64,000 bases of DNA from Mesorhizobium sp. (GTDB lineage: Bacteria > Pseudomonadota > Alphaproteobacteria > Rhizobiales > Rhizobiaceae), in NCBI GenBank assembly GCA_027492275.1, contig JAPUFC010000097.1:32720-96719 (forward strand), written 5' to 3'. The notes below the pieces were generated by a model that searched no databases, was not told where the DNA came from, and was given only the letters and a program-made list of their open reading frames with translations. Positions 8,857 through 16,762 of the stretch are shown one piece after another; position 1 is the first letter of the stretch, and every line of letters starts with the position of its first letter. The translations under genes were made by a program, and so were the position numbers.

Positions 8857-8889
8857 TCCCAAGCACGATGAATGCCGGAGGATAGATCA

Positions 8890-10383
8890 TTGACTGGAAG
8901 CAAAGCGGATCTGGCGGGACAGCAGGCGGCGCGGGAATTCCTGGCGCGCCGCCATCGCCACCTGGTCGACGGCGAATGGGTGGATTCGGCGGCTGGCAAA
9001 AGCTTCGCCGTCACCGACCCGGCGACCGGCGGCACCATCGCCCATGTCGCCGAGGGCGAGGCCGAGGACATCGCGCGCGCGGCGGCGGCGGCGCGGCGCG
9101 CCTTCGACGATGAGCGGTGGACGCGCATCGCGCCGCCCGACCGCTCGCGCATCATGAACCGCATCGCCGACCTGCTCGACGCCCATGCCGACGAGCTTGC
9201 GCTGATCGAGACCCTGGACAACGGCAAGCCGCTGAAGGCGTCGCGCGGCGACGTGCTGCGCGCGGCGGAGAAATTCCGCTACTGCGCCGGCTGGATCACC
9301 AAGCTGACCGGCGAGGCGTTCGATTCCACGCTGCCGGCCGGCTGGCACGGCTTCACGGTGCGCGAGCCGGTGGGCGTCGCGGGTCTGATCGTGCCGTGGA
9401 ACTTTCCGCTGTCGATGGCGGTGAACAAGATCGCGCCGGCGCTCGCCGCCGGCTGCGCCATGGTGCTGAAGCCGGCCGAGCAGACGCCGCTTTCGGCGCT
9501 GCGGCTGGGCGAGATCGTCATGGAGGCCGGCGTGCCCGCCGGAATCGTCAACGTCGTCACGGGCTTCGGCGCGGTGGCGGGAGCGGCGCTGGTGGAGCAT
9601 CCCGGCGTCGACAAGGTGTCGTTCACCGGCTCGACCGATGTCGGCAAGCAGATCGTGCGCGCCGCCACCGGCAATCTCAAGCGCGTGTCGCTGGAGCTCG
9701 GCGGCAAGTCGCCGGTCATCATCTTCCCGGACGCCGATCTCGACAGGACGATCAAGGGCGCGGCCGACTTCATCTTCGGCAACACCGGCCAGAACTGCGG
9801 CGCGGGCTCGCGGCTCTATGCCGACCGCCGCATCTTCGATCGGGTGGTCGAGGGCATCGCCGCGCAGGCTCAGAAGCTGAAAGTCGGCTCGGGTCTGGAG
9901 CCCGACACCGACCTCGGACCGATCATCTCGCAGCGGCAGCTCGACCGCGTCACCGGCTACATGCAGGCCGGCGCTGCGGCGGGCGCGCATGTCGTGACCG
10001 GCGGCGGGCGCATCGAGCGCGAGGGATTCTTCGTGGAGCCGACGATCTTCACGGAGACGCGGCCGGACATGTCGGTCTGGCGCGAGGAGATCTTTGGGCC
10101 GGTGCTGTGCGCCGCCAGCTTCGGCGAGGACGAACTGGATCGCATCATCGCCGACGCCAACGATACCAATTACGGCCTCGGCGCCTATGTGTGGACGCGC
10201 GACCTCGGCATCGCGCACAGGATGGCGCGCAAGCTGAAGGCCGGCTTCGTGCGCGTCAACGGCGGGGCGCATTTCAACGTGCTGCCGTTCGGCGGTTACA
10301 AGCAGTCGGGCTGGGGCCGCGAGAGCGGGCGCGAGGGGATAGAGTTGTTCACCGAGGTCAAGTCGGTGATCATGGGGTTCTAG
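8890..10383 (+). CDS. NAD(P)-dependent aldehyde dehydrogenase
   Basis: A 497-residue aldehyde dehydrogenase that oxidises an aldehyde to its carboxylate, perhaps the aldehyde released by the aldolase encoded upstream. All catalytic residues are present: Asn171 (PWNFP), Lys194 (LKPAEQ), Glu269 (LELGGKSP) and Cys303 (GQNCGAGSR). An in-frame ATG lies at 8872, but GGAGG at 8877-8881 fits the TTG at 8890 with 8-nt spacing, so TTG is chosen. It is the third gene of the aldolase operon. Its TAG overlaps by 4 bp the stop codon of the convergent GMC oxidoreductase gene. Confidence 0.92.
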   Translation: MTGSKADLAGQQAAREFLARRHRHLVDGEWVDSAAGKSFAVTDPATGGTIAHVAEGEAEDIARAAAAARRAFDDERWTRIAPPDRSRIMNRIADLLDAHADELALIETLDNGKPLKASRGDVLRAAEKFRYCAGWITKLTGEAFDSTLPAGWHGFTVREPVGVAGLIVPWNFPLSMAVNKIAPALAAGCAMVLKPAEQTPLSALRLGEIVMEAGVPAGIVNVVTGFGAVAGAALVEHPGVDKVSFTGSTDVGKQIVRAATGNLKRVSLELGGKSPVIIFPDADLDRTIKGAADFIFGNTGQNCGAGSRLYADRRIFDRVVEGIAAQAQKLKVGSGLEPDTDLGPIISQRQLDRVTGYMQAGAAAGAHVVTGGGRIEREGFFVEPTIFTETRPDMSVWREEIFGPVLCAASFGEDELDRIIADANDTNYGLGAYVWTRDLGIAHRMARKLKAGFVRVNGGAHFNVLPFGGYKQSGWGRESGREGIELFTEVKSVIMGF

Positions 10384-11999
10384 CCCCGCTTCGCATCCTC
10401 GCGGATCATGTCGGCGGCCTTCTCGGCCACCATGAAGGTCGGCGCGTTGGTATTGCCGCTGATCAGGTCCGGCATGACGGAGGCGTCGACGACGCGCAGG
10501 CCTTCCACGCCGCGCACCTTCAGCGACGGATCGACCACCGACGCCTTGTCGCCGCCCATCCGGCAGGTGCCGACGGGGTGGTGCGCGGTGCTCGAGAATT
10601 TCCGCAGATAGGCGTCCAGCTCGTCGTCCGAGCGCGCTTCGCCGCCGGGCAGCACCTCCTCGCCGCGGAAGGCTGAAAAGGCGGCGTCGCCGATGATCTC
10701 GCGCCCGAGCCGGATCGCCTCGCGCAGCACGCGCCGGTCCTTCTCCGCCTGGAGGAAATTCTGGAAGATGCGCACCGGCGTCCTGCCGTCCGCGCCGGCC
10801 AGCTCGACGCGGCCCCGGCTTTCGGGATGCAGTAGGATGATGCTGCAACCGAAGCGGTTCGGCCCCTTGGCCGCGATCAGCGGGAACCACGGCCGCGCCA
10901 GCCGCGACACCGGCCGGAACAGGAACTGTATGTCGGGCACCTCGGCCGCCGGGTCGATTCGCGCGAAGCCCAGTCCGCTCGACGGCACGTTGGTCGCCGG
11001 CCCGACGCCGGCCAGATAGGCGAGCAGGGACGAGGCGATGGCGCGGTCCCAGCGCGAACCCTTGGCGAAGGGACCCGGATCGAGCCGCTCATACTCCAGC
11101 AGCACCACGACATGGTCTTGCAGGTTTGCGCCCACCGACGGCGCATCGACCAGCGGCGCGATGCCGTGGCGCTTGAGCTGTTCGGCCGGGCCGATCCCCG
11201 ACAGCATCAGAAGCTGCGGCGAATTGTAGGCGCCGCCGCACAGCAGGATTTCGCCGCGCGCGGTCGCGCGCCGCGCCTCGCCGCCGCGCGTGCGGTAGAG
11301 AACGGCCGTCGCCCGGCGGCCCTCGAAGACGATCCTCTCGGCCAGCGCGCCGGTCTCTATTCGGAGGTTTTTCCGGCCGCGCGCCGGGCGCAGGTAGGAG
11401 ACCGAGGCGCTGGCGCGCCGGCCCCTGCGCAGCGACTGCTGGAAGGGCGCGTGACCGATCTGCTCGCCGTCATTGTAGTCCCGGTTGCGCGGCAGGCCGT
11501 GGCGGGGCAGGGCTTCCGAGAAGGCGGCGTTGAGCGGGTCGCGATAGGCGTTCTCGCGCACATGCACCGGCCCGGTCATGCCGCGCGCCTGGCTCGGCTC
11601 GCCCTCCCAGGTCTCGAGGCGCTTGAAGTAGGGCAGCACTTCTTCATAGGACCAGCCGGTGGCCCCGTTGTCGGCCCAGCGGTCGAAATCCGCCGGATTG
11701 CCTCGCACATAGACCATGCCGTTGATGGAGGACGTGCCGCCCATCACCCGTCCGCGCGGCAGCGGCACGACGCGGCCGTCCAAAAACTCTTCCGGCTGGG
11801 TGTCGTATCCCCAGTCGAAATAGCGCTTCTGGTTGATGCGGCCGAAGCCGAGCGGCACATGGATGAGGATGTCGCGGTCGGCCCCGCCGGCTTCCAGCAG
11901 CAGCACGCTTTTGCGGCCGTCCTCCGACAAACGCGCCGCGAGCACCGAGCCCGCCGTGCCCGCGCCGACGATGACGTAGTCGAATTCCATGTCCGGCAT
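10380..11999 (-). CDS. GMC-family FAD oxidoreductase (choline dehydrogenase-like)
   Basis: A 539-residue glucose-methanol-choline oxidoreductase. It has the N-terminal FAD-binding VIVGAGTAGSVLAARL, the GMC signature 1 region GRVMGGTSSINGMVYVRG, the GAYNSPQLLMLSGIGP signature 2, and C-terminal active-site His and Asn in TAHHPVGTCRMG and SGNTNAPT. The ATG at 11999 follows GGGAGCGAC; upstream codons in the same frame do not resemble the family. It oxidises a primary alcohol or polyol to an aldehyde, so it could feed the aldehyde dehydrogenase encoded next door. A GTTTCG-N5-CGAAAC-like site lies 71 bp upstream, which links it to the island rather than to the sulfur operon above it. Confidence 0.92.
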   Translation of the reverse strand: MPDMEFDYVIVGAGTAGSVLAARLSEDGRKSVLLLEAGGADRDILIHVPLGFGRINQKRYFDWGYDTQPEEFLDGRVVPLPRGRVMGGTSSINGMVYVRGNPADFDRWADNGATGWSYEEVLPYFKRLETWEGEPSQARGMTGPVHVRENAYRDPLNAAFSEALPRHGLPRNRDYNDGEQIGHAPFQQSLRRGRRASASVSYLRPARGRKNLRIETGALAERIVFEGRRATAVLYRTRGGEARRATARGEILLCGGAYNSPQLLMLSGIGPAEQLKRHGIAPLVDAPSVGANLQDHVVVLLEYERLDPGPFAKGSRWDRAIASSLLAYLAGVGPATNVPSSGLGFARIDPAAEVPDIQFLFRPVSRLARPWFPLIAAKGPNRFGCSIILLHPESRGRVELAGADGRTPVRIFQNFLQAEKDRRVLREAIRLGREIIGDAAFSAFRGEEVLPGGEARSDDELDAYLRKFSSTAHHPVGTCRMGGDKASVVDPSLKVRGVEGLRVVDASVMPDLISGNTNAPTFMVAEKAADMIREDAKRG

Positions 12000-12093: not shown

Positions 12094-12711
12094 CTATCCG
12101 GCGGTCGCGGCTTCCAGCACGCGTGTGCGGGCGGCGAGGTCCACGGCAAGCGAGGAGGTCACCTCCAGCGCCCGGTCGTCGAGTACGGCCGAACCTGAGG
12201 GATGCGCGGCAAGCACGCGGTCGCGCTCGCGCACCAGCTCGGCGATCTCCGTCTCGTAGAGGCGCAGGATGGCGGTCAGCCAGCGGTTCACCAGATAGGA
12301 CGGCCTGGCCATCTGCATGTCGAAGCGTTGCAGCAGCGGGATCGTGCCATCGGCGTCGAGGAAGGTGTCGCCCACCACCCAGCGGTTGACGGTGAACAGG
12401 CGATGGAGCTTGCCGAAGGCGTCGACGCCGACGGCGACAAGGTGATGCACCGGTCCCTGCGCCCCTTGCGGCCGCACGAAGCAATGGAAATGCCCGTGCT
12501 CGCCGTCAACGGACGGGACATGGCAGTGATAATACCATTGTGCGCCGCTCTCCGGGTCGAACACGTCGCCCGGCGGGTAGTGCGACCAGGCGTCCACCGA
12601 GGCGGCGTCCGTCAGGGTGGCGCGCAGAACGTTCTCGCCGGATTTGGCGAGGATGCGCTCGCAGAACTGCGCCTCGCGGGCCGCCTGGAACAGATCCCCG
12701 CCCGCGCTCAT
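12094..12711 (-). CDS. Uncharacterised His-rich 205-residue protein, last gene of the sulfur/Cys-rich operon
   Basis: The product has no signal peptide or membrane segment. Its central part is rich in possible metal ligands: YYHCHVPSVDGEHGHFHCF carries HCH, HGH and HC within 19 residues (near residues 68-86), followed by a VHHL stretch. The C-terminal third is helical. The ATG at 12711 follows GGCCGGAG and overlaps by 4 bp (ATGA) the stop of the Cys-rich repeat gene, so the two are translationally coupled. The frame is open much further upstream, but that part is the repeat DNA read in another frame and is not protein sequence. I believe it belongs to a DUF-type family but cannot name a function; metal handling is inferred from composition and neighbours. 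Confidence 0.8.
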   Translation of the reverse strand: MSAGGDLFQAAREAQFCERILAKSGENVLRATLTDAASVDAWSHYPPGDVFDPESGAQWYYHCHVPSVDGEHGHFHCFVRPQGAQGPVHHLVAVGVDAFGKLHRLFTVNRWVVGDTFLDADGTIPLLQRFDMQMARPSYLVNRWLTAILRLYETEIAELVRERDRVLAAHPSGSAVLDDRALEVTSSLAVDLAARTRVLEAATAG

Positions 12712-13070
12712 TGCGCTCCGGCCGCGCAGGGGTTGGCGGCGGCGCAGGGCGCACCGGCGGCACAGGGATTGGCGGCGGCGCAAGGCGCGCCTGCCGCGCA
12801 CGGACTTGCCGCCGCGCAGGGCGCGCCTGCCGCGCAGGGATTGGCCGCCGCGCAAGGCGCGCCTGCCGCGCAGGGGTTGGCGGCGGAGCAGGGGGCGCCG
12901 GCGGCGCAGGGATTGTCGGCCGCGCATGGGTTCGCCGCCGGCTGCGCCGGTTGGGCGGGCTGCGCCGCAGCCACGGCGGCCCGGTTGGCCGAGGCGACAT
13001 GGTCGGCTGCGACCGCCGCCGTGGCGGCGAGCAATGCCGCGCCGAAGAGAAGCGTGTTGCGTGAACTCAT
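12708..13070 (-). CDS. Exported cysteine-rich Pro-Cys repeat protein
   Basis: A 120-residue protein with an N-terminal signal peptide (residues 1 to about 22, ending in AAVAA), a short Ala/Gln/Pro linker (31-46) and a C-terminal repeat made only of Ala, Gly, Pro, Asn, Ser, Asp and Cys. Cysteines fall exactly every six residues at 49, 55, 61, 67, 73, 79, 85, 91, 97, 103, 109 and 115, nearly all as NPC or APC; the double unit is NPCAAGAPCAAA. It overlaps the yeeE-type gene before it and the 205-residue gene after it by 4 bp each, so it is a real, coupled gene. Twelve regularly spaced thiols in an exported protein suggest binding of soft metals or carriage of sulfane sulfur. No characterised homologue is recognised. 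Confidence 0.85.
   Translation of the reverse strand: MSSRNTLLFGAALLAATAAVAADHVASANRAAVAAAQPAQPAQPAANPCAADNPCAAGAPCSAANPCAAGAPCAAANPCAAGAPCAAASPCAAGAPCAAANPCAAGAPCAAANPCAAGAQ
12711..12932 (-). repeat. 36-bp in-frame tandem repeat encoding the Pro-Cys units
   Basis: Codons 47-120 of the Cys-rich gene form a tandem array with an 18-bp half unit and a 36-bp full unit (NPCAAG + APCAAA). Copies differ at synonymous and a few replacement positions (Asp, Ser), so they have diverged under selection to keep Cys and Pro. Such arrays can change copy number by slippage. Confidence 0.85.
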
Positions 13071-14281
13071 GTCCGTTTCAATCCGTCGAGGCCGAACAGT
13101 GGCCGGGCGTACATGCCGACATAGCTGCCGGCGAAGGCGGCGGCGAACCAAAGCCAGCCATGCAGGCTGCCCGAGGCGATGCCGCTGAACAGCGCGCCGA
13201 TGTTGCAGCCGAAGGACAGCCGCGCGCCATAGCCCATCAGCACGCCGCCGATGGCCGCCGCGAGGAAGGACGCGAACGGCACATGCACCTTCGGCGCGAA
13301 CTTGCCGGCCAGGCCGGCGGCGAGCGCCGCACCCAGGATGATGCCGAAATTCATCACCGATGTGACGTCGGCCAGCACGCTCGCCCGCAGCGCGCGGGCC
13401 TGCGCCGGCCACTGCCAGAACGTCCACTCCGCGACCGGAATGCCGACGGCCTGCGCCGTCTTGGCGCCCCACAGCCCGAAGCCGTAGGTCACCGACCACG
13501 GATGGCCGGCCAGAAGCAGCGTGGCGAGGTTGAGCCCGGCCAGCCCGAGCCCGCCCCAGATCAGCGGCCACGGTCCTTGCAGCAGACGCGGCAGGCCGCT
13601 GACGGACGGCTTCTTCTCGGTTTCCAGCGATCCGTGCGCGCGCTTTTCGACCACCGTGCTCAGCCACGCCACCGCGCCGAGGAACAGCAGCGTCGCCGCG
13701 ATGGCCCCGGGAACGCCGAGGCTCTTGCCGAGGCTGATGGCCGGCAGCGAGGGCCGCTCCAGCCACCACGGCAGATGCGCCGTGCCGATGACCGCGCCGA
13801 CGATGAAGAAGATCAGCGTGACCAGCATGCGCGAGGAACCGCCGCCGACCGTGAACAGCGTACCGGAGCCGCAGCCGCCGCCGAGCTGCATGCCGAGCCC
13901 GAACAGCGCCGCGCCGACCAGCACCGACACGCCGACCGGGGCGAGGGCTCCGACCAGCGGCCGTCCAAAGGCCTCGCCCGCCGCCAGCAGGGGGATGAAG
14001 ACGATCGCCGTGACGCCGATCATCAGCATCTGCGCGCGGATCGATGCGCCGCGCTTCTCGACCACGAAGCGCCGCCAGCCGCCGGTGAAGCCGAACGAGG
14101 CGTGGTAGAGCGTGATGCCGAGCAGCGCCCCGACGAGGAACAGTGCCGCCTGCCGTCCGTCGATGAGCGCGGCGATGGCCGACGCGCCGACGGCGAGCCC
14201 CAGCAATGTGGTGGTGACGGGCCCCCGGTCGATCGGGATGCGCGGCCGTCGCGACAGGTTTCCGGCGGTGATGTCTGTCAT
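13067..14281 (-). CDS. YeeE/YedE-family (TsuA-like) membrane transporter
   Basis: A 404-residue polytopic membrane protein of the DUF395/YeeE-YedE family, whose characterised member TsuA imports thiosulfate. The two pore-type cysteines are in conserved contexts: Cys137 in LGGGCGSGTLF and Cys359 in LSFGCNIGALFSG, one in each repeat of the inverted-repeat architecture. The ATG at 14281 follows AAGGCAGATC; 15 codons upstream are also open but lack a ribosome-binding site. The stop codon overlaps the ATG of the Cys-rich repeat gene (4 bp), and the sulfurtransferase gene ends 69 bp upstream. It probably moves a sulfur compound or persulfide across the inner membrane, in concert with the periplasmic sulfurtransferase. 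Confidence 0.9.
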   Translation of the reverse strand: MTDITAGNLSRRPRIPIDRGPVTTTLLGLAVGASAIAALIDGRQAALFLVGALLGITLYHASFGFTGGWRRFVVEKRGASIRAQMLMIGVTAIVFIPLLAAGEAFGRPLVGALAPVGVSVLVGAALFGLGMQLGGGCGSGTLFTVGGGSSRMLVTLIFFIVGAVIGTAHLPWWLERPSLPAISLGKSLGVPGAIAATLLFLGAVAWLSTVVEKRAHGSLETEKKPSVSGLPRLLQGPWPLIWGGLGLAGLNLATLLLAGHPWSVTYGFGLWGAKTAQAVGIPVAEWTFWQWPAQARALRASVLADVTSVMNFGIILGAALAAGLAGKFAPKVHVPFASFLAAAIGGVLMGYGARLSFGCNIGALFSGIASGSLHGWLWFAAAFAGSYVGMYARPLFGLDGLKRT

Positions 14282-14350
14282 GATCTGCCTTGAAGCACGA
14301 TGCCCGGGCGATGACCACCCGGGCATGAGGCGTTGCGTGGGTTCGGTCGG

Positions 14351-15268
14351 TTACTGGACGACGACGGGGCGGGCGGGATCGGCGGTCCACTCCGACATCG
14401 AGCCGTCGTAGAGCCGCACGTTCTTCAGGCCCTGCACCTCGGACAGGCCGAACCAGGCGATGGAGGCGAGGTGGCCGGTGTTGCAGAAGGTGATGACGCC
14501 CTTGTCGTCCGACACGCTGGCGGCCTTGGTGAGCTGCGCGACCTCGTCGGCGCTGGCGAAGCCCGGCTTGTCGTTGTGGTAGAACTTGTCGAAGTTGACG
14601 TTCACCGAGGTCGGCACGGTGCCCAGCGCCTTGACGGTGTTGGTCTTTTCCTTGCCGATGAACTGCGCCACCGAGCGCGCGTCGACCAGGTTGGTGTCGT
14701 TGGCGATGGCGTCCTGAACTTCCTGCACCTCGGCGCGGAGCTCCGGCCGGTAGTTCGGCGTGAACGAGCCGGCGGCCGGCGTCACGGCGTCCCTGGAAAC
14801 CTCCTTGCCGGCCTTCGTCCAGGCCGCGTAGCCGCCGTCCAGCACCGAGACCGCGTCGTGGCCGAGCACCTTGAACGTCCAGTAGACGCGCGTGCCGCCG
14901 CCGAATTCGGAGGCGTTGGTGCCGGCGGGCACGATCACGACATGGCTGTCGTCGCTGACGCCGAGGCTTTCGACCAGCTTCTCGATGGCTTCCTTGGAGG
15001 GCAGCAGGCCCGGCACGCCGTTCACCGTCGCGCGCCAGCCGGACTGCGAGTATTTCGCGCTGACCGCGCCGGGGATGTGGCCCTCGGCATAGGGGTCCTT
15101 GTCCTGCGTGGCGTCGCGGATGTCGAGGATGACGAGGTTCTTCTTGCCGAGATTGGCGGCCAGCCAGTCGGCATCGACCAGCGGCTTGTCCGTTAGCCGC
15201 TCGGCCTGGGCGGCTCCGGTGAGGGCGAGACCGGCCGCGAGGGCCAGCGTGGCGAAAAGCTTCTTCAT
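14351..15268 (-). CDS. Exported rhodanese-type sulfurtransferase
   Basis: A 305-residue two-domain rhodanese (thiosulfate/mercaptopyruvate sulfurtransferase) with a clear signal peptide (1-22, ending GAAQA), so it acts in the periplasm. The inactive N-terminal domain includes VILDIRDATQDKDPYAEGHIPGA. The C-terminal domain carries the active loop CNTGHLAS with Cys262, which forms a persulfide during sulfur transfer. It is the first gene of a minus-strand operon with the YeeE-type channel, the Cys-rich repeat protein and the 205-residue protein. The export signal and the channel next door suggest it processes a periplasmic sulfur donor. The start is the ATG at 15268, with AGGGA upstream. Confidence 0.92.
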   Translation of the reverse strand: MKKLFATLALAAGLALTGAAQAERLTDKPLVDADWLAANLGKKNLVILDIRDATQDKDPYAEGHIPGAVSAKYSQSGWRATVNGVPGLLPSKEAIEKLVESLGVSDDSHVVIVPAGTNASEFGGGTRVYWTFKVLGHDAVSVLDGGYAAWTKAGKEVSRDAVTPAAGSFTPNYRPELRAEVQEVQDAIANDTNLVDARSVAQFIGKEKTNTVKALGTVPTSVNVNFDKFYHNDKPGFASADEVAQLTKAASVSDDKGVITFCNTGHLASIAWFGLSEVQGLKNVRLYDGSMSEWTADPARPVVVQ

Positions 15269-15496: not shown

Positions 15497-16762
15497 ATGA
15501 TCATGGGCCGTCTTCATTGTGGCGTCGATTTCGGCACCACCAATTCCACCGTCGGCTTGTGTGCGCGCGGCTCCGAGCCTTTCCTCGTCGCGGTCGAGGG
15601 CGACCAGCCGACCATCCCTTCGGCGCTGTTCTTCAGCCTCGAGGACGGCAACGTCTATTTCGGCCGCGCCGCCGTCGGCGAATACATGCAGGGCACCGAG
15701 GGACGCTTCATGCGGGCGCTGAAGTCGATCCTCGGCACCAGCCTGATGAAGGAGACGACGCAGGTCGGTCGCGACCGCATGACCTTCCAGGGCTTGATCG
15801 GACGTTTCCTGCGCCAGTTGAGGAGCCGGCTGGAGGAGCAGCATGGCGAGGTGCCGGGGCAGGTGGTGCTCGGGCGGCCGGTCTTCTTCGTCGACGGCGA
15901 CGAGACCGCCGACCGCACCGCCCAGGACCAGCTTGAGGCGGCCGCCCGCGCCGAGGGTTTTCGCCACATCGAGTTCCAGTTCGAGCCGGTGGCGGCCGCG
16001 CTGCACGTCGAGCGCACGCTGGACAGGGAGGCGCTGGCGCTGGTGGTCGACATCGGCGGAGGCACCTCCGACTTTTCGGTCGTGCGACTGTCACCGGAGC
16101 GGTCGCGCGCGGTCGACCGCCGCGACGACATACTGAGCACGGCGGGCGTCCATGTCGGCGGCACGGATTTCGACCGCTGGCTGAACATCGCCGAGGTGAT
16201 GCCGCATATGGGCCTCGGCACCATGACCCGCGACGGCAAGCGCCACCTGCCAGTCTGGTACTTCAACGACATGGCGACCTGGCACCGCATCAACCAGCTC
16301 TATACGCAAAAAACGCTGCGCGACATCCAGTCGCTGATGCGCGAAGCGGCCGAGCCGGAGAGACTGGAGCGCTTCGAGCACCTGCTCGTCCACCGGTCCG
16401 GGCACAGGCTGGCGGGGCAGGTGGAGAAGGCGAAGATCGAGCTGACCGATACCGATGAGACGGCCATATCCCTGATCGAGCCGGGCCTGTCGCTGCGGCT
16501 GCCGGTGTCGAGACCAGCCTTCGAGGCGGCCACGGCGGATCTGGTGGCGAGGATCGGCGCCGCCATCGAGAACGCGCTGGCCGGCGCCGGTACCCCGGCC
16601 GCGGCGATCGACACGGTCATCATGACCGGCGGCGGCGCGCAGGTGCCCAGCGTGCGGGCTGCTGCGACGTCGCGGTTCCCCGAGGCGATCATCGTGCAGT
16701 CGGATCGCTTCGGCTCGGTCGGACTCGGGCTGGCGGTCGACGCGGCCAGGCGCTTCGGCTGA
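15497..16762 (+). CDS. Hsp70-family chaperone-like protein (YegD type)
   Basis: A 421-residue protein with the actin/Hsp70 ATPase fold but no full substrate-binding domain, so it is much shorter than DnaK (about 640). Phosphate 1 motif CGVDFGTTNST is near the N-terminus, phosphate 2 is LVVDIGGGTSDFSVV (about 181-195) and the adenosine motif is IMTGGGAQVPSV near 375. E. coli YegD is the closest well-known relative; its client is not established. The start may be the ATG at 15497 or the one at 15503; neither has a strong ribosome-binding site. It is divergent from the sulfur operon, but a shared function is not shown. Confidence 0.88.
   Translation: MIMGRLHCGVDFGTTNSTVGLCARGSEPFLVAVEGDQPTIPSALFFSLEDGNVYFGRAAVGEYMQGTEGRFMRALKSILGTSLMKETTQVGRDRMTFQGLIGRFLRQLRSRLEEQHGEVPGQVVLGRPVFFVDGDETADRTAQDQLEAAARAEGFRHIEFQFEPVAAALHVERTLDREALALVVDIGGGTSDFSVVRLSPERSRAVDRRDDILSTAGVHVGGTDFDRWLNIAEVMPHMGLGTMTRDGKRHLPVWYFNDMATWHRINQLYTQKTLRDIQSLMREAAEPERLERFEHLLVHRSGHRLAGQVEKAKIELTDTDETAISLIEPGLSLRLPVSRPAFEAATADLVARIGAAIENALAGAGTPAAAIDTVIMTGGGAQVPSVRAAATSRFPEAIIVQSDRFGSVGLGLAVDAARRFG

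Follow-up and report, generated by a model that had tools for sequence, protein, structure and literature searches.

We identified a four-gene operon in a 64,000-nucleotide stretch of Mesorhizobium sp. DNA (assembly GCA_027492275.1, contig JAPUFC010000097.1, positions 32,720 to 96,719), hereafter the window, in which a rhodanese, a YeeE-family channel, a 120-residue protein with Pro-Cys repeats and a 205-residue DUF6969 protein are encoded on one strand (Table 1). Judged by their sequences, these four proteins probably move sulfur into the cell. We read the operon as a sulfur-import module in which the Pro-Cys tail would carry persulfides and DUF6969 would serve as maturation enzyme or chaperone, and we give this reading as a whole a probability of about 45%. 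DUF6969 and Pro-Cys proteins recur as a pair that is apparently undescribed in the open-access literature, which makes the finding wider than a preliminary description of the same DNA had said; the genome-wide tie between the two, often with no YeeE gene nearby, is its most surprising part.

Table 1. Features of the operon, in window coordinates
Feature	Position	Strand	Size or basis
Exported-looking two-domain sulfurtransferase (rhodanese, SseA/TST type)	14351..15268	-	305 aa, PF00581
YeeE/YedE-family (DUF395, Sulf_transp) membrane channel	13067..14281	-	404 aa, PF04143
YeeE stop / repeat-protein start overlap	13067..13070	-	ATGA, 4 bp, sequence
Small membrane-anchored or exported Pro-Cys repeat protein	12708..13070	-	120 aa, 12 Cys, period 6
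Conserved hydrophobic leader/anchor MSSRNTLLFGAALLAATAAVAADH	12999..13070	-	48 distinct leader-type proteins
Twelve hexapeptide units [N/A/S]-P-C-[A/S]-A-[G/A/D]	12717..12932	-	units, codons, tandem repeats
Repeat-protein stop / DUF6969 start overlap	12708..12711	-	ATGA, 4 bp, sequence
DUF6969 protein	12094..12711	-	205 aa, no leader by eye, PF22308

Conservation of the operon and of its Pro-Cys protein

The gene order is the one given in the preliminary description, with overlaps at the last two junctions and an intergenic gap of 69 bp between the rhodanese and YeeE genes. The neighbourhood recurs in other genomes: a small protein with a Pro-Cys tail is present at 43 of 45 distinct (de-duplicated) same-strand rhodanese-YeeE pairs, 42 detected by script (small protein, hydrophobic leader, at least one Pro-Cys) and one, L089, found by reading, in a sample that is biased because most pairs were found through DUF6969. 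Among pairs from YeeE searches, one of which covers the best 30 of 46 places, 11 of 13 have the Pro-Cys protein. On these counts, loss of the repeat gene from conserved copies was not borne out, and the sulfur-themed operon is supported as coherent and conserved. YeeE genes adjoin DUF6969 in 56 loci, where the small protein is of the window's leader type in 51 (48 distinct proteins) and another Pro-Cys protein in the remaining five. Two pairs, L316 (genome G327) and L320 (G307), have a Pro-Cys tail and DUF6969 elsewhere in the genome; L342 and L343 have single-Pro-Cys forms with one PCG tail each. In a Defluviimonas metagenome-assembled genome (L102:7694-7981), a leader-type protein with CAAKKPCAAKK repeats stands directly before DUF6969, and the locus has no YeeE or rhodanese match.

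The window protein carries Cys at residues 49, 55 and onwards to 115, each spacing being exactly 6, as had been described. It matches no Pfam family above cut-off (the SoxY domain included) and no NCBIfam family. The DNA of the units forms tandem repeats with periods of 18, 36 and 72 bp, and over the P, C, A and A codons of the 12 units non-modal letters occupy 1 of 96 first and second positions versus 15 of 48 third positions. Because codon variation sits in third positions, the PCAA motif is under purifying selection at the protein level and is not merely repetitive DNA.

Relatives with the same leader are conserved across genera. The leader motif was picked after a first look at these relatives and selects 48 de-duplicated proteins, in which N, F and D are conserved in 100% and H in 79%; the leader ends in Asp in all 48, mostly followed by His. 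Proteins without the motif (L309, L342) escape this selection because it uses the motif. The 48 proteins contain 1–17 Cys, only one or two in 12 of them, and Pro precedes 279 of the 281 Cys. Cys spacings range from 5 to 44, none of the 233 being ≤4, and 44 of the 48 proteins have no His past residue 35. Neither the count of 12 nor the strict period of 6 is conserved; since Cys number and spacing vary among relatives, the 12-fold, period-6 array is one of the ways in which a simpler Pro-Cys tail has been expanded.

Wide variation of this kind, together with an Ala/Pro-rich tail in GC-rich DNA, would also fit a low-complexity repeat that has no function itself and travels as a passenger in a sulfur operon. 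This is very improbable, given the purifying selection on the PCAA codons, the conserved leader, the Pro-Cys protein at nearly every rhodanese-YeeE pair and the lack of such repeats in control regions (see below).

The same relatives bear on a soft-metal sponge, that is, an exported Cys-rich protein that would bind periplasmic Cu(I), Zn or Cd, with DUF6969 as modifying enzyme or metallochaperone. A Cys-rich, exported protein with a dedicated partner has an architecture like that of bufferins, as these appear in the accessible part of PMC12452194, and the invariant His cluster of DUF6969 (see below) would suit a metal-related partner. NPCNPC repeats elsewhere have CxxC, 3 being their commonest spacing (638 cases in 66 open reading frames), and CxxC does occur in NPCAAK proteins of other lineages and in the short tail of L309 (CAPC). 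The window protein, with all spacings at 6, has no metallothionein-type CxC or CxxC cluster, and among the leader-type proteins the lack of close Cys, the scarcity of His beyond the leader and the forms with one or two Cys speak against metal storage. No metal transporter or regulator is found among the annotated neighbour clusters, a subset of those listed. MNIO (PF05114) has no match in the host genome (G000); it occurs in 17 of 45 genomes, in none within 10 kb of DUF6969 (nearest approximately 18 kb, G155), and no bufferin-type cluster of ribosomally synthesised and post-translationally modified peptides, with PF05114 beside a precursor, was found. We consider the sponge rather unlikely. 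Since the tail scales down to one Cys, has no close Cys pairs and lies among sulfur neighbours, a scalable persulfide-carrier tail appears to fit better than metal storage and is favoured; of the roles that the preliminary description had offered (sulfane-sulfur relay, metal sponge or thiol store), the relay gains and the sponge is weakened.

Co-occurrence of DUF6969 and Pro-Cys repeats

DUF6969 was detected in 90 of 385 alphaproteobacterial genomes drawn from the class and in 20 of 398 genomes drawn from the phylum, and NPCAAK-type repeats with unrelated leaders occur around it in many lineages. A made-up 51-residue repeat sequence, run over the 385 genomes, matched 45, several of them weakly (e.g. 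37% identity in G124 and 52% in G374). DUF6969 is present in 43 of these 45 genomes versus 47 of the 340 others (Fisher p 3e-29, phylogeny ignored), and the co-occurrence spans 27 of 28 families, a count that partly remedies the test's blindness to kinship. Both exceptions were kept in the count: G150 (36%-identity match, two internal stops) and G356, which is 91% complete and has no DUF6969 match even at an E-value of 10; three congeneric genomes in the draw do carry DUF6969. Negatives of the 51-residue query are lower bounds because it missed 14 DUF6969 genomes with local Pro-Cys repeats; when local repeats are included, 57 of the 90 DUF6969 genomes have Pro-Cys repeats. Where this YeeE subfamily is present, 32 of 44 genomes also have DUF6969, versus 58 of the 341 others.

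Eleven of the 43 genomes had no match of the 51-residue query within 10 kb of DUF6969; one of them, G327, has a local repeat 1.4 kb away, which leaves 10 of 43 in which neither scan finds a repeat close to DUF6969; the co-occurrence is therefore not a matter of linkage alone. Pro-Cys repeats, defined as [NAS]PC[ASGN] at least 3 times in 60 residues (a motif picked after seeing the regions), adjoin DUF6969 in 55 of 113 regions, several of which were shortened by contig ends, versus 0 of 40 control regions taken 80 kb away on the same contigs (one from a contig start). Five motif settings gave 58 versus 3, 50 versus 0, 53 versus 0, 55 versus 0 and 63 versus 2 regions.

Other Cys-rich sequences were also seen at DUF6969 loci. 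L054 and L055 have Pro-free Cys arrays of the CCAAEGCC and ACAAGCAAC types beside DUF6969, and a 74-residue open reading frame with CGACGACG repeats lies by a divergent DUF6969 (L011:2269-2490, minus strand).

The accompaniment of DUF6969 by repeats, linked or unlinked, would also be expected if DUF6969, aided by an FGE-like oxidase in some lineages, converted Pro-Cys motifs into something other than thiols; the product would be a new kind of modified polymer, which might have a role unrelated to sulfur transport. A Pro-Cys motif is plausible as an enzyme recognition site. In 33 of the 193 DUF6969 loci used for neighbour counts (a set not cleared of duplicates), an FGE-sulfatase (PF03781)-like gene precedes DUF6969 by about 1 kb on its strand, and 22 of these 33 have repeats. 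The window operon has no such gene, and the two of the host genome are on other contigs. The FGE-like proteins share a conserved C-terminal motif, CGVCRPAARH (e.g. L161:9783-10712, minus strand), and thus have CGVC but not CxxxxC, the usual Cu-binding Cys pair of FGE; in those inspected visually, a hydrophobic leader is present. FGE acts on CxPxR, which by inspection is not in the window repeat. We assign this alternative a low probability.

Rhodanese, channel and DUF6969 protein

PF00581 matches the rhodanese in two stretches (E 3.1e-31, 108 bits), as in a two-domain enzyme that has a single catalytic Cys; this is Cys262, which lies within FCNTGHLAS and is the only Cys of the protein. With a hydrophobic N-terminal leader recognised by inspection, the protein looks exported, in line with the exported rhodanese with active Cys262 of the preliminary description. 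The protein scores 118 of 250 bits against the SseA 3-mercaptopyruvate sulfurtransferase equivalog NF008557, which is under the cut-off, and has structurally solved homologs (3hwi, 3aax, 1urh).

The channel belongs to the YeeE/YedE family (PF04143, E 3.3e-73, 247.4 bits versus a gathering score of 27). Its only Cys, Cys137 and Cys359, both align to Cys of the solved S. thermophila TsuA. Of 46 rows (L061–L110 and the window), 44 conserve the first and 45 the second, and both are also present in all 28 rows of YeeE relatives without rhodanese. In the alignment no window Cys stands opposite the first TsuA Cys, and no further channel column has Cys in ≥30% of the 46 rows. The channel scores far under both NCBIfam cut-offs for TsuA (NF052577, 73 of 400 bits; NF041049, 40 of 645 bits) and is no TsuA equivalog; of the earlier TsuA-like assignment, the family and the two Cys stand.

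The 205-residue protein, previously noted as His-rich, does contain 10 His (and 3 Cys); its family had been missed. PF22308 (DUF6969) matches at E 2e-71 (240.2 bits versus a gathering score of 27) over profile positions 2–201 of 201. Because it has no visible leader, the protein is probably cytoplasmic. Residues P46, H62, H64, E71, G73, H74, H76, H90, F106, N109 and R163 are invariant in 111 aligned sequences. A high-confidence model built from these sequences (mean pLDDT 96.6, pTM 0.93) places the five invariant His and the Glu on three successive predicted strands (57-68, 71-79 and 89-96), which suggests that this cluster is a candidate metal site. Of 162 Foldseek matches in the PDB not one has an E-value of 0.001 or better, VIA-align reached a best Z of 3.4 among 997 chains, and a sequence profile found no PDB relative below E 0.3; the predicted structure has no clear PDB fold match, which is not proof of a new fold. 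In a tree of the 111 rows, the window clade comprises 47 rows (SH-aLRT 100), 42 of them with YeeE, and repeat-bearing rows are scattered throughout the remainder. One sequence from a Phormidium willei contig (L119), whose record bears a cyanobacterial name, clusters with that of an alphaproteobacterium (G088) and is probably contamination.

Other genomic settings of DUF6969

NPC-repeat proteins may carry cytochrome domains. A SoxA/TsdA-type cytochrome c domain is over the cut-off in four of them (L235, L243, L234, L237), and cytochrome P460 domains are over the cut-off in L207, L154, L202, L242 and L172 and below it in L165 and L169. A second rhodanese group is found in 9 of the 193 loci, 4 of the 9 with repeats, and YeeE matches occur in three NPCAAK-repeat loci (L177, L187, L192). 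The SoxA/TsdA-type domains, this rhodanese group and the DsbD-type genes below extend the sulfur theme beyond the operon; the SoxA/TsdA-type domains, the rhodanese group and the YeeE matches count in favour of the proposed relay.

A DsbD/CcdA-type gene cluster, of which a representative was annotated, occurs in 13 of the 193 loci, all within L061–L110. Such neighbours, and the many isolated thiols of the tail, would agree with a periplasmic thiol-disulfide buffer that stores reducing equivalents or shields the channel and rhodanese from oxidation. A buffer accounts neither for the Pro that precedes almost all Cys nor for the link with DUF6969 or the single-Cys forms, and we regard it as improbable.

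In L113, L228 and their relatives, from Azospirillum and others, DUF6969 lies in a MlaE/MlaD-type lipid-transport setting, in a locus without Pro-Cys repeats. Relatives of DUF6969 were found in 171 plasmid records, 108 of Sinorhizobium megaplasmids and 47 of Burkholderia (those listed being B. glumae). A mobile element was considered and rejected: DUF6969 occurs on plasmids, yet viral contigs scanned with query P0001 held no relative.

Around the operon itself, genes were named by eye. A GMC oxidoreductase-like gene (10380-11999, minus strand) follows on the same strand about 95 bp 3' of DUF6969, and past it an aldehyde-dehydrogenase-like gene (8872-10383, plus strand) lies on the opposite strand. 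An Hsp70-like gene (15497-16762, plus strand) is divergent to the rhodanese gene across a gap of 228 bp. An RNA element or obvious promoter was considered and rejected: scans gave no Rfam match, no sigma-70-like site and no more terminators than expected by chance.

Proposed sulfur relay

In the proposed relay, thiosulfate or a comparable donor would supply a sulfane sulfur, which the periplasmic rhodanese would take up on Cys262 and hand as persulfide to Cys of the membrane-anchored small protein. The flexible Ala/Pro tail could then act as a multi-copy carrier arm, resembling the single-Cys arm of SoxY but repeated, that would buffer sulfur and offer it to the YeeE channel (Cys137, Cys359) for passage into the cytoplasm. 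DUF6969 may act on the P-C-A-A motif itself and be dedicated to Pro-Cys proteins, whether by maturing them as a metal-dependent enzyme or by serving as their export chaperone.

Several observations weigh against this relay. The channel lacks one of the three pore Cys that are conserved in TsuA and SoxT according to the accessible part of PMC11582611. Among the rhodanese-YeeE pairs, L321 has no small protein and L310 has a Cys-tailed protein without Pro-Cys, and DUF6969 is in the locus of 38 of the 45 pairs, most found by way of it. In L309, L342 and L343 a Cys tail accompanies rhodanese and YeeE although their genomes have no DUF6969 match, so a short tail can do without DUF6969; the tail of L309 has close Cys (CAPCGAPC). 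No Pro-Cys repeat was found by either test in 33 of the 90 DUF6969 genomes, an upper bound that includes three genomes whose regions were left out (G094, G131, G191) and some with other Cys-rich or Pro-Cys proteins missed by the motif (G194, G205, G307, G375). Elsewhere, MlaD adjoins DUF6969 in 19 of the 193 loci, none with repeats; in S. meliloti, YeeE and rhodanese genes are missing from the annotated neighbours of the L015 copy, and Cys repeats from both loci examined (L013, L015). The SoxA/TsdA matches also match CCP_MauG, slightly better in L243, and the name of the fused P460 domains does not mark them as sulfur enzymes.

Relation to known systems

We compared the operon with four described systems, drawing on the accessible parts of the cited papers. 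TsuA/YeeE-TsuB, which imports thiosulfate, and SoxT1A/SoxT1B share the PF04143 channel, two of whose pore Cys are present in the window, and a periplasmic partner is thought to deliver sulfur to TsuA/SoxT (PMC11582611). A short one-helix membrane protein of 56 residues, Hden_0678, adjoins SoxT1A and, as described there, has neither an assigned function nor any Cys (PMC11582611), unlike the Cys-tailed protein of the window. The channel's partners in the window differ from those of TsuA/SoxT in being an exported-looking rhodanese and a Cys-tailed protein, and no TsuB is among the four genes. SoxY is an exported carrier with a C-terminal GGCGG (PMC6067878), and the window protein resembles it as a putative exported carrier whose flexible C-terminus has Cys among small residues. 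It differs in having no SoxY domain (Pfam), 1–17 Cys nearly all after Pro, a likely membrane anchor and a DUF6969 partner; SoxY would thus be the nearest functional analogue of the repeat protein and is no relative.

The nearest architectural analogues would be the bufferins, repeat proteins that are rich in Cys, are exported and have a partner of their own, probably in the cytoplasm (PMC12452194). The partner in the window is DUF6969 and not MNIO/PF05114, and the motif is PCAA and not EGKCG (PMC12452194). The bigR operon of Agrobacterium and Xylella likewise has a sulfurtransferase, under sulfide control (PMC5823870); its Blh is a sulfurtransferase/dioxygenase, and the accessible part of that paper names no Pro-Cys protein or DUF6969 (PMC5823870). 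As the preliminary description had supposed, no described system of such composition was found in the open-access literature searched: printed NPCAAK-type strings and the term 'DUF6969' each had 0 matches, and none of the titles and abstract openings describes the repeat protein.

Implications

A far-reaching and doubtful extension is that DUF6969 could be the first known representative of a new enzyme fold and could place a new modification on Pro-Cys-Ala-Ala, its products forming a new, Pseudomonadota-wide class of periplasmic sulfur-carrying (or electron-linked sulfur) cofactors. If so, the exported Pro-Cys polymers would come in three forms: unattached, joined to cytochromes of the SoxA/TsdA or P460 type, or anchored next to a YeeE channel. 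Sulfur import via YeeE-family channels is called poorly understood in the accessible part of PMC11582611, and the operon offers a candidate carrier for it whose dose evolution has already varied, from 1 to 17 Cys. The co-occurrence of DUF6969 with Pro-Cys repeats, in 27 families of one draw, points to Pro-Cys proteins as a specific candidate substrate of this uncharacterised domain.

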